DNA from: Thermothielavioides terrestris NRRL 8126 | Lineage: Eukaryota > Ascomycota > Sordariomycetes > Sordariales > Chaetomiaceae | Assembly (NCBI RefSeq): GCF_000226115.1 | Contig: NC_016458.1 | Coordinates: 3,630,001 to 3,694,000 of the forward strand | Length of the DNA: 64,000 nt | Direction: 5' to 3' | Made by a program: the position numbers and the translations under genes | Notes under the pieces: generated by a model | Database searches by the model: none | Seen by the model: the letters and a program-made list of their open reading frames with translations, nothing else | Told to the model about the DNA's origin: nothing | In this document: piece by piece, positions 24,718-31,270 of the stretch | How the letters are laid out: the number at the start of each line of letters is the position of its first letter | Numbering within the stretch: position 1 is the stretch's first letter

Positions 24718-27626
24718 ATGACGCCGACGCCTCCTTCAACCACGAATTCGTCCACCGGTCGGTCTCCTGAAGCACAGTACCGGGTGGTCCGTAAGAGAAA
24801 TAGAGTGCCGCTCAGTTGCTACCCCTGCCGGACAAGAAAGTGAGTCGCCTTCGCGCTTGCTACCTTCCCGCTGTTTTTGCGTTGTTGTCCGCTGACGATT
24901 CCAGATTGTAAGCTGCCGTCTCCGGGGTGCTAGCTGGGTTCCTTCCGAGCTTTTCTAACACGGCGCCCAGGAAGTGCGACAGATCTCACCCATGTAGCAA
25001 CTGCACCAAGCGCGAGGGCGCAGACACGCTCTCCTGCTCATACGCCACTCCCGTTTCCCGCAGGAAGAACCAGAGCCAAGGGGAGCCCAGTGCGGACGAT
25101 ATGCAGAACCGGATCGACAGGTTAGAGGGTCTCGTCCTGTCGCTGATGCACGGAGGGGCAAGTGTCGATGTTGGCTCGTTGCCCGGGGCGGCGTCCTCGG
25201 TTTCCTCAGCCGGCGCTGCTTCCAACGCCTCGCCTTCCACCGCAGACAGCAATTCCTTGCCCGCGAAAATCGATGAGCGTGACGACGGCGCCATGCAGGA
25301 CGAGGACGAAAGTGATATTGATGAGGGTCTGGCCAAGTCCCTGGGCGTCTTGAAGGTCGATGCAAGCCGGACGAAGCAGGTCTATTTGGGGGAAGAGCAC
25401 TGGCACACCATCCTGCTTGACATCGCCGAAGTCAAGAACTACTTCGCAAATCACAAGAAGGACATGGAGAGGAGCTACGAGAGGATTAAGTCAACCAAGC
25501 CGCCAAACGCGAAACAACCGCCGATCCTACTGATGGGCGCGACGCCTGCCTCTGAAATCGAGCTCCGCGCCGAGCTGCCGCCCAAGTCGACCGTCCTAGC
25601 CCTGTGCGCAAGGTGTTTCAGCTCGGTAGACAACGTTGCCAGCATTGTCCACGCGCCGACGTTCCATCAACAACTGCGCAGACACTGGCAAGACCCGTCC
25701 AAGACGCCTATCATGTGGTTGGCGCTGCTGTATTCGATTCTGTGCTTGGCCATGCTGAGCTATCACAAGGTCGGGGACGAGCCGCCTGATGGGAAGGGCC
25801 GGGTGCTTGAGCTGGCAGACGAGTACCGGCTGAGAACAGTGCAGTGTTTGATTGCCGCCGACTACACAAAATCCGCCGAGTACACGGTGGAGGCCATGTT
25901 GCTGTACGCCTTCTGCGAGTACTCGTCCCGGTGGGATGCCGAATTAAGTCTGTGGGTAATTATATCCATGGTTGTGAGGATCGCGATGCGGATGGGATAC
26001 CATCGCGATGGCAAGTGGTTTCCCACTCTCTCCCCCTTCGAGGCGGTATGTTTATTTTTTTTTTTTTTCACCCCCTTTTTTTCCCCCTTTTTTCTCTTTT
26101 GTCTCCGTTTGTTTAAAACTTCACTCTCCAGTATGCGCCTTCCTTCTCACAGCTGACCACTGCTCCCCAATTTAGGAAATGCGACGCAGGACCTGGGGTC
26201 TCGTTAGGATGCTTGATGTCTTCTTGTCGCATCAGATCGCACTACCCAGCATGATCTCAGAATACGACTGCGATACCGAGTTGCCCCACAACTTAAACGA
26301 CGAAGACTTCGGTCCGGACACGAAGGTATTACCCCCGTCTCGGCCCAATGATGAGCCGACGCCCATCAGCTACTTGATCTTCAAGATCAAGCTGTGTCTA
26401 CAGCTCGGAGCCATCTTGCAGGCCACGGGCCGAGTGAAGAACCCAGTTCACTATGACGAGATCCTCCGATTTGATGCCAAGCTACGCGACATCAGGGCCG
26501 AGCTACCACCCCACCTGAAGATGCTGCCACTTGAGGAATGCCAGGGCCCGCTGACGCTAGTCATGGCACGCTTCAACATGGACATTCTCTACCTCAAGAT
26601 CATGTGTTTGCTCCACAGGAAGTACATACCGCGAGCGAGGCACAACCCCCGGTATGCGCACTCTCGGCGCAGTGCCATCGAGGCCTCACTAGAGGCGCTG
26701 CGGCACTTGGCAACGCTGCATCGGGAGTCACAGCCCAATGGGCGGCTGCATCCGATCAGGTGGTTCGTTACATCGGTGGCGACCAAGGACTTCCTGCTTC
26801 CTGCCATGCTCATCGCACTCGACTTGCACTTCGACAATGCGGGTCAGGGGTCGGCGGGACAAAGCTCGCATTTCTGGTCCCGGGAGCAACGCCAGGAGAT
26901 GATCGTCAGCCTTGAGCTGACAAGGGACGTCTGGAAACAGCTGGCCGACATCTCGATGGAGGCAGTCAAGGCGTCCAACACGCTGGAGATCATGCTGGCC
27001 AAAATCAAGGGCTCCGGTGGCGCGGACGGGCCGACAAGTCCGGTCGAGAGGACGTCAGCTTCCGGGCCTCTCGGAGCCACTGGCTTGACGGCATTGGAGC
27101 CGGAGCACTCAGCGGCTATGACACTTGGCATGCTTTCGGAGGGAGCAATGCCCGGCTCGCCTGCGACGCTCGGCGGCCCCCAGATGTCTGCGGGCGCCCC
27201 GTATGGGACGCTCAACCCGAGCTCGGACCCATCGAATACAGGCCCGGGCCCGAGTACGGGACCAGGCACAAATATGGGAGCAGGCGCCGCAGCATATGAA
27301 TTTTCCAACCCCATGCTGGGTTTCGACGGCGGGCAATCTCCACTCTCCATGTTCGATAACATGGCGGGCGGCAACCTCGACTTTTCTACCAACCTTGATT
27401 GGGTAAGGATGTTCCCCGGCCTAAGTTTAGATGCCGTGACCTCCCTCAGGCGTACACCTTGCTGACCCGCGGTATCCAGGATTCCTTCGAGAACTATATG
27501 CAAACCGCCCACTGGGGCGCCGAAACTCTCCAGTTCTTTTCTGGCAACCCAGAAATGTCACAACAGCAGGCTCCGCCAGATGGCATTCCGTTTCCCTACG
27601 GCCCAGATCTGAGGGGTTCAACCTAA
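24718..27626 (+). CDS. Zn2Cys6 transcription factor with fungal-specific TF domain
   Basis: Model: exon 1 24718-24839, intron 24840-24904, microexon 24905-24907, intron 24908-24970, exon 3 24971-26045, intron 26046-26175, exon 4 26176-27402, intron 27403-27449, exon 5 27450-27626; 867 residues. The zinc cluster (residues 34-64) reads C34-x2-C37-x6-C44-x5-C50-x2-C53-x10-C64 with the canonical RTRKLKCD, which needs the 3-nt microexon. An acidic segment (DEDESDIDEG) and a probable dimerisation helix follow. The fungal-specific TF domain (about 220-560) includes the APTFHQQL block, YHRDGKWFPTLSPFEA and EMRRRTWGLVRMLD, which joins correctly across the 26046 intron. The C-terminus is Gly/Pro/Ser-rich and likely activating. 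It ends 820 bp upstream of the amylase gene, same strand. It is not obviously AmyR; the target is unknown. Confidence 0.9.
24905..24907 (+). other. 3-nt microexon (ATT) in the zinc-cluster codons
   Basis: Flanked upstream by a complete 65-bp intron (GTGAGT donor 24840, CTGAC branch 24892-24896, CCAG acceptor ending 24904). Downstream is a complete 63-bp intron (GTAAGC donor 24908, CTAAC branch 24955-24959, CCAG acceptor ending 24970). Its inclusion turns AA|A TT|G into Lys-Leu and restores the six-residue spacing between Cys37 and Cys44. Skipping it would give RTRK-KCD with five residues, still in frame but off the family consensus. Confidence 0.8.
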
Positions 27627-28445: not shown

Positions 28446-31270
28446 ATGCGCACTCTTCACCGAGCCCTTCTTGTCCTGGCCGGAGCTGTCCTGGAAGCTT
28501 CGCAGGGTGCTGCCGGGCTCTCGGCTGCCGAGTGGCGGAGCCAGTCCATCTACCAGGTTGTCACCGACAGGTTCGCCCGGACCGACCTGTCGACCACGGC
28601 GTCTTGCAACACGGCAGACCAAGTCTACTGCGGAGGGACATGGCAGGGGCTCATCTCCAAGCTGGACTACATCCAGGGCATGGGTTTCACCGCCGTATGG
28701 ATCTCACCAGTGGTCAAGCAGGTGGAAGGCAATTCCCAAGATGGGTGAGCTCTCCGCCGCGTGAACCGTCCCGGCCTGCCCGAGCTCCCGCTGACGAGTG
28801 AGTCATGGAAGGTCGGCCTATCACGGATACTGGGCGCAGGATATCTGGGCCTTGAATCCAGCTTTTGGGACCGAGGCGGATCTCGCTGCGCTCGCTGCGG
28901 CACTGCATGCCCGAGGCATGGTGAGAACTCAAGCTTGGTGCTTCCGAGCCACGACCAATGCTTTGCTGATGGGTGGTGCTCTGCTCCCAGTATCTCATGG
29001 TTGACATCGTCACCAACCATATGGCATACATGGGTTGTGGCACCTGTGTAAACTACAGCCTGTTCAATCCCTTTTCATCGGTGCGGATCGTGTCCTCCCT
29101 CGCCGGCAACCCACTTCCGGGGCTCAAGGGGCCAAACCGCTAAGTCACTGCAGTCATCGTACTTCCACCCATATTGCGCCATCGACTACAGCAACCAGAC
29201 GTCGGTCGAGGTGTGCGTACTCCCCTCCCTGATGAGTGAGGGGCGATGATATTAGCAGCTGACATGATGCTGCAGTTGCTGGCAAGGGGATAACATTGTC
29301 AGGTATTCTTCGGAGGAACCCCGAGTCCTACTTCCCTCTCCACTCGGCTTAAGTTACCGTAGAAGATCCAACTAACAGGCATCCAGTCTGCCTGATCTGC
29401 GCACCGAGGAGCAAGTGTTCCCCAAGCCCCCTTGGGCCCCCCGTGGCATGAAGACACCGGCCTACTAACTAGGCAAGCAATGCAGTGACACCGTGCGCAG
29501 CATCTGGAACCGCTGGGTTAGCCAGCTCGTGTCCAACTACTCCATGTAAGATTGAATATCCATCCGTTGCCCGCCGAATACTACGCGATGCGAACCCGTG
29601 TTGACATGCTGGGCACATAGCGACGGCTTCCGAGTCGACAGCGCAAAGCACGTCGAGACGTCCTTTTGGCAAGGCTTCTCGACAGCGGCGGGCGTGTACC
29701 TGCTGGGCGAGGTCTTTGACGGGGACCCGTCGTACGTGGCGCCTTACCAGAACTACCTCAACGGGGTTCTGGACTATCCCAGGTACGAACGAACCTTACC
29801 CTGGCTTGTCTTTCTCACCTGCAATGCTGACTCCCCGGCTCAAGCTACTACTGGATCCTCCGGGCTTTCCAGTCATCCAGCGGCAGCATCAGCGACCTCG
29901 TCTCCGGGCTCAACACGCTCCATGGCGTTGCTCTGGACCTTAGTCTATATGGGTCCTTCCTCGAAAACCACGATGTGGCGCGGTTTGCGTCATTCACGCA
30001 AGACATGGTGAGTGCGCAGCACGGAGCTTCAAGCGTGTCCATTGTCTCAACAAGTGGCTAACCAGATACTTTGTACGGCCGAGAAGTCCCTAGCGAAGAA
30101 TGTGGGTGGTGCATAAGAGCCCGTTGGAGATCTGTCCTTACTAATAATCTTGCCCGGATGGGAACGGCTGGAGTTGTAGGCCATCGCATTCACAATGTTG
30201 AAAGACGGTCAGTGTCCCGCAACCGTGACGGCCATGGGTGCCCTTATTCTGACAAGGGGCAGGCATCCCCATCATATACCAGGGACAAGAGCAACATTAC
30301 TCTGGCGGAACGACGCCCAACAACCGCGAGGCCCTCTGGCTCTCGGGCTACTCGACTAGCTCCGAGCTTTACAAGTGGATTGCCGCCTTAAACCAGATCC
30401 GGGCCCGAGCAATTGCTCAAGATGGCGGCTATCTCTCCTACAGCAGCCAACCCATCTACTCGGACAGCCACACCATTGCCATGCGCAAAGGCACCTCGGG
30501 ATACCAGATCGTGGGCGTGTTCACCAATGTCGGGGCTTCGTCGTCGGTCACGGTCACCCTAACCTCTTCCGCGACGGGCTTCGGGGCGAACCAAGCACTC
30601 ATCGACGTGATGAGCTGCACCGCCTACACCACAGATTCGACGGGAGCCCTCACTGTAACCCTGAACGACGGCCTGCCCAAGGTGCTTTATCCGACTGCGC
30701 GGCTCTCGGGCAGCGGTATCTGCGCAGGGATGACCAGCACAGCGCTGCCGACGTCAAGCTCGACTGCAGCATCAGCCACGACGAGTAAGTTCAGGCCCTG
30801 GCGTGGTTGGCCCAAGAGTGATATTGTGTGTCGGCCACTTTGACGCCAACAGTTGGTAACGGAAATGGCCTTCTAGCTGCCTCAGCCTGCTCCTTGTCGG
30901 CAGTGAACATCACCTTCAATGAGCTCGTCACCACGGCGTGGGGGGACACAATCAAGCTGTAAGTGTTAGGAAAGATTGGACATGCTGCACCCCCTGTGGC
31001 TCAAGGGCTAACGGAGGCGATTGTGGCAGGGCCGGCAACATATCCGCTCTCGGCAGCTGGAGCCCAAGCAGTGCCTTGACACTGAGCGCATCGCAGTATT
31101 CACAAAGCAACCCGCTCTGGTCCGTCACAACCGTGCTCGCTCCCGGAACGGTGATCGAGTACAAGTTTATCAAGGTCAGCGCCTCCGGGACAGTAACATG
31201 GGAGTCGGACCCGAACCGCGTCTACACTGTGCCCTGCGCAACTGCGACGGTCAGTAGCACTTGGCGATGA
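28446..31270 (+). CDS. Secreted alpha-amylase, GH13 with CBM20
   Basis: Endo-alpha-1,4-glucanase of the Taka-amylase type. My 14-exon model: 28446-28744, 28812-28920, 28991-29080, 29154-29212, 29276-29302, 29387-29410, 29486-29545, 29621-29782, 29845-30007, 30087-30101, 30180-30207, 30263-30784, 30853-30958, 31030-31270. The total is 634 residues and all phases close. A signal peptide ([18 protein letters not shown]) leads to [19 protein letters not shown]. All four GH13 motifs are present: DIVTNH (141-146), GFRVDSAKH with nucleophile D229, GEVFDGD with acid/base E253, and FLENHD with D320. [16 protein letters not shown] follows. After a Ser/Thr linker comes a CBM20 starch-binding domain ([24 protein letters not shown]), with the binding Trp residues present. 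The intron at 29411 uses a GC donor. Exons of 15, 24, 27 and 28 nt are unusually small. Confidence 0.9.

Follow-up and report, generated by a model that had tools for sequence, protein, structure and literature searches.

A single-codon microexon that probably completes the zinc cluster of a fungal Zn2Cys6 regulator

A gene for a transcription regulator in Thermothielavioides terrestris very probably contains a genuine, normally included exon of three nucleotides, ATT, which lies between two complete introns and completes the zinc cluster of the protein. We identified it in a stretch of 64,000 nucleotides (hereafter the window, in whose positions all coordinates are given). The best reading of the evidence is that the microexon is real and old, and that gene finders overlook it.

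Results

Layout of the regulator gene

The gene lies on the forward strand at 24718-27626 and consists of five exons, which give a protein of 857 amino acids when the Leu of the microexon is included (Table 1). Its start, MTPTPPS, agrees with the relatives. Exon 1 ends with AGAAA at 24839. In both introns that flank ATT a branch-like site stands shortly before the acceptor: the A of CTGAC is 9 nt from the end of intron 1 and that of CTAAC is 12 nt from the end of intron 2. The original prediction of two back-to-back introns around ATT was exact in its coordinates and sequences, and by its sequence ATT is a microexon in the usual sense of a coding exon of at most 30 nt flanked by two complete introns. 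Further downstream, intron 3 carries long runs of T and C, including 14 T in a row, and a second open acceptor of intron 4 ends at 27449. Downstream of the regulator, at a distance of about 0.8 kb and likewise on the forward strand, an alpha-amylase-like gene starts (28446-28748 and onward), with a PF00128 match of 49 bits within its first 100 amino acids.

Table 1. Exons and introns of the regulator gene, in positions of the window
Feature	Position	Strand	Description
Exon 1	24718..24839	+	From MTPTPP... to RTRK, ending with AA, the first two bases of the Lys codon; zinc-cluster cysteines 1 and 2
Intron 1	24840..24904	+	65 nt, phase 2; GTGAGT / CTGAC / TTCCAG
Microexon ATT	24905..24907	+	3 nt; would supply the Leu of RTRKLKC, giving Cys2-x6-Cys3
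Intron 2	24908..24970	+	63 nt, phase 2; GTAAGC / CTAAC / GCCCAG
Exon 3	24971..26045	+	Remaining zinc cluster (KCDRSHPCSNC...C), linker, start of Fungal_trans
Intron 3	26046..26175	+	130 nt; spliced junction SPFEA/EMRRR agrees with relatives
Exon 4	26176..27402	+	Remaining Fungal_trans domain (PF04082) and C-terminal region
Intron 4	27403..27479	+	77 nt; junction DW/DSFENY agrees with relatives
Exon 5 and stop codon	27480..27626	+	End of the 857-aa protein with Leu

The best database match to the regulator is the species' own deposited protein (P0001; Sordariales, Chaetomiaceae), with 95% identity over 90% of the query. This protein of 736 amino acids starts at 25101 (MQNRID), the first in-frame Met of exon 3, and lacks the entire DNA-binding domain; the probable cause is a gene model that overlooked the twin introns.

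The microexon restores the zinc cluster

Zn2Cys6 binuclear clusters follow the consensus C-x2-C-x6-C-x5-12-C-x2-C-x6-8-C. With the microexon, the regulator reads CYPCRTRKLKCDRSHPCSNC...C and conforms to this GAL4-like pattern, save that the last spacing is 10 residues (TKREGADTLS), longer than 6-8, as it is in close relatives; without the microexon the consensus is lost. Inclusion of ATT yields AAA TTG AAG TGC (KLKC), skipping yields AAG AAG TGC (KKC), and the frame is kept both ways. Inclusion had been predicted to set six residues between Cys2 and Cys3, and skipping to leave five in an intact frame. Both predictions held: the Pfam model Zn_clus (PF00172) matches with 31.1 bits when Leu is present (cut-off 21), and the match vanishes when it is absent. 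The protein also matches Fungal_trans (PF04082, 72.9 bits) and resembles in sequence the solved chains of HAP1/CYP1, PUT3, CBF3 and GAL4. The regulator is by these matches a Zn2Cys6 (GAL4-like) transcription factor, with predicted binding of zinc and DNA.

The spacing of six is also the rule in the same genome (36.9 Mb in six contigs). Its 30 best Zn_clus loci, a choice that by its nature favours standard spacing, were parsed for six cysteines with four to eight residues allowed; parsing succeeded for 28, all of which have x6, and failed for two.

To enumerate the possible splicings we considered single introns from GT or GC to AG of at least 35 nt, and pairs of introns with a middle exon of 1-30 nt. 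C-x2-C-x6-C was rebuilt without a stop by none of the 386 single introns and by one of the 3,295 two-intron combinations, namely the one that retains ATT at 24905-24907. The original prediction had named other splice sites that insert one codon as an outcome that would count against it; none among these 386 and 3,295 splicings restores the cluster in that way.

How readily such an arrangement arises by chance depends on how much of it is counted. In dinucleotide shuffles of the 131-nt interval, with 6 nt at the start and 20 nt at the end (including the second branch site) kept fixed, a bare AG-NNN-GT able to give x6 appeared in 2,244 of 20,000 (11%), and this motif alone is weak evidence for a microexon. 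When the internal AG also had to follow a pyrimidine and be accompanied by a branch site and a donor of the GTRNG type, criteria chosen post hoc with the site already known, the number fell to 4 of 20,000. Genome-wide searches found no enrichment of either of two core patterns: CTAAC..CAGNNNGTAAG occurs at 3 sites against 9 for the reversed control, and CTGAC..CAGNNNGTAAG at 8 against 17. The case for the microexon rests on its coding context, not on a genome-wide excess of the pattern. ATT is probably included in the mRNA of T. terrestris.

Most annotated CDR-type relatives lack the Leu

We collected 177 homologues as representatives of clusters at 90% identity, drawn from the best 120 each of 1160, 517 and 514 matches and taken as mostly orthologues. 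The motif CxxCRx[RK]KxKC[DN] is matched by 98 of them, and its free residue is Leu in all 98. These comprise 29 proteins of CDR type (20 annotated, 9 from lgn/jgi contigs) and 69 of CNR type (65 annotated, 4 lgn), the latter including Hypoxylon rubiginosum (Xylariales). The KKC form, with five residues, was found in 52 proteins, every one from an annotated source. A further 10, again all annotated, are aberrant at this point of the cluster, and the first half is missing in 17 (11 annotated, 6 lgn/jgi). One of these 11 annotated proteins, P0155, looks unrelated.

The 82 annotated CDR-type relatives collected thus divide into 52 without Leu (RTRKKC), 20 with Leu and 10 aberrant, which implies that many regulators of the group are mis-annotated as lacking a DNA-binding domain. 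Such errors affect regulator inventories as well as constructs built from these models. Among the matches listed, PF00172 is absent from 52/52 KKC rows and present in 29/29 CDR-type KLKC rows; likewise, in a direct Pfam check P0009 and P0123 (KLKC) passed Zn_clus and P0006 and P0004 (KKC) failed. Exons of 3 nt lie outside what gene finders and aligners model, which is probably why many annotated Sordariomycete relatives omit it and seem to have no zinc cluster. In the KKC rows the Cys is never followed by N. P0086, one of the aberrant models, starts with MRRRLKCDR and so reads LKC. The models P0064, P0065 and P0098 continue RTRK with YV..., as if translation had run into an AA/GTAYGT donor at the same phase-2 point.

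KKC annotations were found in Chaetomium fimeti (Sordariales), Trichoderma virens (Hypocreales), Cryphonectria parasitica (Diaporthales), Colletotrichum tofieldiae (Glomerellales), Sporothrix brasiliensis (Ophiostomatales), Thielaviopsis punctulata (Microascales) and Pyricularia grisea (Magnaporthales). Both KKC and KLKC occur within Podospora, Colletotrichum, Coniochaeta and Cercophora. We placed 96 rows on a FastTree tree with the N-terminus excluded (52 KKC, 29 CDR-type KLKC and 15 of the 69 CNR-type). The annotated KKC and KLKC labels require at least 14 changes on it, and 21 if the lgn/jgi rows are added; 200 label shuffles gave a mean of 17.5 (14 to 20), with 14 or fewer in 3 of the 200. 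The scatter of the two forms is wide, as expected of missed exons, but less than at random. It may be that one or both introns are really absent from some lineages, or that annotation pipelines cluster by lineage, and some KKC annotations may be supported by RNA-seq. Protein-guided scans of genome and viral contig sets found no DNA of a relative; for other species, the two-intron layout is proposed from their proteins.

Probable cDNA-derived relatives carry the Leu

Eight lgn/jgi proteins (P0009, P0017, P0032, P0067, P0081, P0114, P0126 and P0150) run unbroken across the junctions of introns 3 and 4. Their full-length open reading frames lie on short contigs (longest 2.7-7.7 kb) that, given this continuity, are probably spliced cDNA. 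KLKC is present in all eight, against 20 of the 72 annotated CDR-type proteins that could be scored (Fisher p about 1e-4), and the skip form, KKC, in none of the eight. The nearest collected relative of P0009 is P0006 of Chaetomium fimeti, which is 83.7% identical and annotated as KKC. A different kind of support comes from P0123, whose cluster RSRKLKC is uninterrupted; its 80-kb contig, and a reading frame that continues into intron 3 without splicing, mark it as probably genomic.

The picture is not a simple one, for among 15 lgn/jgi proteins in the comparison six have no zinc cluster, though their intron-3 junction is spliced. These open reading frames (P0024, P0031, P0045, P0071, P0108 and P0119) are of the probable cDNA type. 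They could reflect contigs incomplete at the 5' end, the choice of start site, or introns retained at the microexon.

Discussion

Constitutive inclusion or an alternative

The simplest competitor to a microexon is a single intron of 131 nt, with KKC as the real product and ATT standing between splice-like motifs by chance. The frequency of bare AG-NNN-GT among the shuffles speaks for it, as do the 52 annotated KKC relatives, which are partly clustered on the tree. It would nevertheless cost the protein its Pfam Zn_clus domain, in a genome where every parsed locus has x6, and it leaves unexplained the invariant Leu of the x6 motif forms, the KLKC of the probable cDNA and of the uninterrupted genomic relative, and the rarity in shuffles of full signals at the internal sites. 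We consider it highly improbable. Even less credible is a stwintron, in which a nested intron splits a splice motif of another intron: the successive removal of adjacent introns does resemble fungal stwintrons (PMC9024468, PMC6616335), but here the donor, branch-like site and acceptor of each intron are contiguous, three coding bases lie between the introns, and no splice motif is split, which is what defines that class.

The original prediction had gone further and held that splicing of the microexon controls the activity of the factor, and that skipping could give an isoform dead for DNA binding. In such a switch, conditions would set the balance between inclusion and either skipping or intron detention, and hence between a DNA-binding and a cluster-less form. 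Skipping does preserve the frame, and retention of intron 1 (RTRK-stop) or of intron 2 (RTRKL-stop) brings an immediate stop, after which the next Met, at 25101, would open a cluster-less protein. P0001 and the lgn/jgi open reading frames P0031, P0071, P0108 and P0119 start at that very Met, with the intron-3 junction spliced in the lgn/jgi cases. There is also a reported precedent for a glucose-regulated microexon of 20 nt in a Zn2Cys6 gene, Xlr2 of Trichoderma virens (PMC11121469). Against this, skip forms are absent from the eight probable cDNA-derived proteins, the x5 annotations are widely scattered on the tree, and the cluster-less reading frames may come from contigs incomplete at the 5' end or from start choices of gene callers. 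The isoform claim found no support: KKC, at 52 of the 72 scoreable annotated CDR-type proteins and 0 of 8 probable cDNA-derived ones, looks like gene-finder output, and we regard a regulated switch as improbable. A related and likewise unlikely proposal is that the twin-intron microexon is an old control point, kept across several Sordariomycete orders, at which incomplete or skipped splicing under some conditions would yield a form without the DNA-binding domain. Since either retained intron gives an immediate stop, intron retention would be no less plausible than clean skipping as an off-state. As a by-product, a protein that restarts at Met 25101 and lacks the DNA-binding domain is possible.

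Relation to known ultra-short exons

Ultra-short exons are a known class in fungi. In the titles and abstracts of the matches listed, mostly of non-subscription literature, we found no description of the regulator's microexon, of any 3-nt exon inside the zinc cluster of a fungal protein, or of such apparent breadth across orders.

One close precedent among fungi is the 1-nt exon of the CYP621A P450 genes of Fusarium, which is supported by SRA reads (PMC12940212). There too an ultra-short exon between two introns rebuilds a conserved motif, is hard for gene finders and is backed by an intronless relative. Skipping of that exon breaks the exon phases, however, whereas the 3 nt of the regulator keep the frame; and CYP621A is an enzyme of Fusarium, whereas the present exon, known from sequence, falls in a regulator's DNA-binding domain and seems to be shared by several orders. 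A second precedent is Xlr2, whose 20-nt microexon encodes PCRRCE and was reported to vary with glucose. Like the present one, it lies inside the Zn2Cys6 cluster of a Fungal_trans regulator, is missed by annotations and removes the DNA-binding domain when lost, but it has 20 nt rather than 3. Xlr2 (T. virens ID 47927) is apparently a different gene, the regulator's relative in T. virens being TRIVIDRAFT_214414 (P0060).

Outside the fungi, Drosophila homothorax has a conserved, alternatively spliced micro-exon of 3 bp (PMC7392893), which is likewise a 3-nt exon conserved in evolution in a transcription-factor gene. It lies between domains and consists of the initial 3 nt of a longer exon, whereas ours lies within the DNA-binding motif. 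In plants, conserved microexons are often misannotated, and their flanking introns are reportedly detained more often (PMC8831610). Plant microexons resemble the present one in being conserved, ultra-short and often absent from annotation, but they were found by RNA-seq, and the regulator's from the DNA of one fungus and the proteins of others.

The present exon places a single codon at the centre of a DNA-binding motif, and the relatives suggest that one splicing layout has persisted across several Sordariomycetes orders. It also offers a natural test of how the spliceosome removes two introns that are three bases apart.

Splicing mechanism and origin of the twin introns

It is implausible that an exon of 3 nt is recognized as a unit, and for this reason we propose that the two ordinary short introns would be excised in turn, each on its own, through intron definition. 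AA, ATT and G would then be joined to give the Leu of RTRKLKC, which would set Cys2 and Cys3 six residues apart and so produce a protein presumably able to bind zinc and DNA. Intron 1 would occupy an old position common to the paralogues, and intron 2 would be a later arrival.

The paralogues of the same genome are consistent with this order of events. Four close ones with a split cluster (L081, L082, L083 and L084) have a single phase-2 intron that interrupts the same Lys codon behind its AA, exactly at the position of intron 1, followed by G, a codon for Ser, Leu, Val or Leu, then Lys or Arg, and Cys. They have no counterpart of intron 2, which falls within the following codon. Because these four have only the position of intron 1, intron 2 was probably added later, 3 nt beyond it, which would have isolated the microexon. 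A further relative, L089, gave no solution in this comparison.

We also looked for recurrence of the layout among 41 Zn_clus matches that start at profile position 7 or later, 40 of which were examined. One intron resolved 20 of the 40 loci, and a second round resolved 8 more (28/40), which left 12 loci with no solution; the solutions are uncurated, have x6 built in and include several weak donors. Among the 20 loci left open by the one-intron search, a two-intron search that required consensus-like donors and introns of 45-150 nt gave no solution. Tandem duplication of one intron into two was considered as a source of the pair and rejected, the similarity of the introns being no better than that of shuffles (1,218 of 2,000 reach the score); by alignment and shuffles, introns 1 and 2 show no sequence kinship. 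The genome does hold an intron-free related regulator, L088 (G000:C3:62100-63500, minus strand), whose cluster is uninterrupted and reads CDPCRARKLKCNREWPCQNC.
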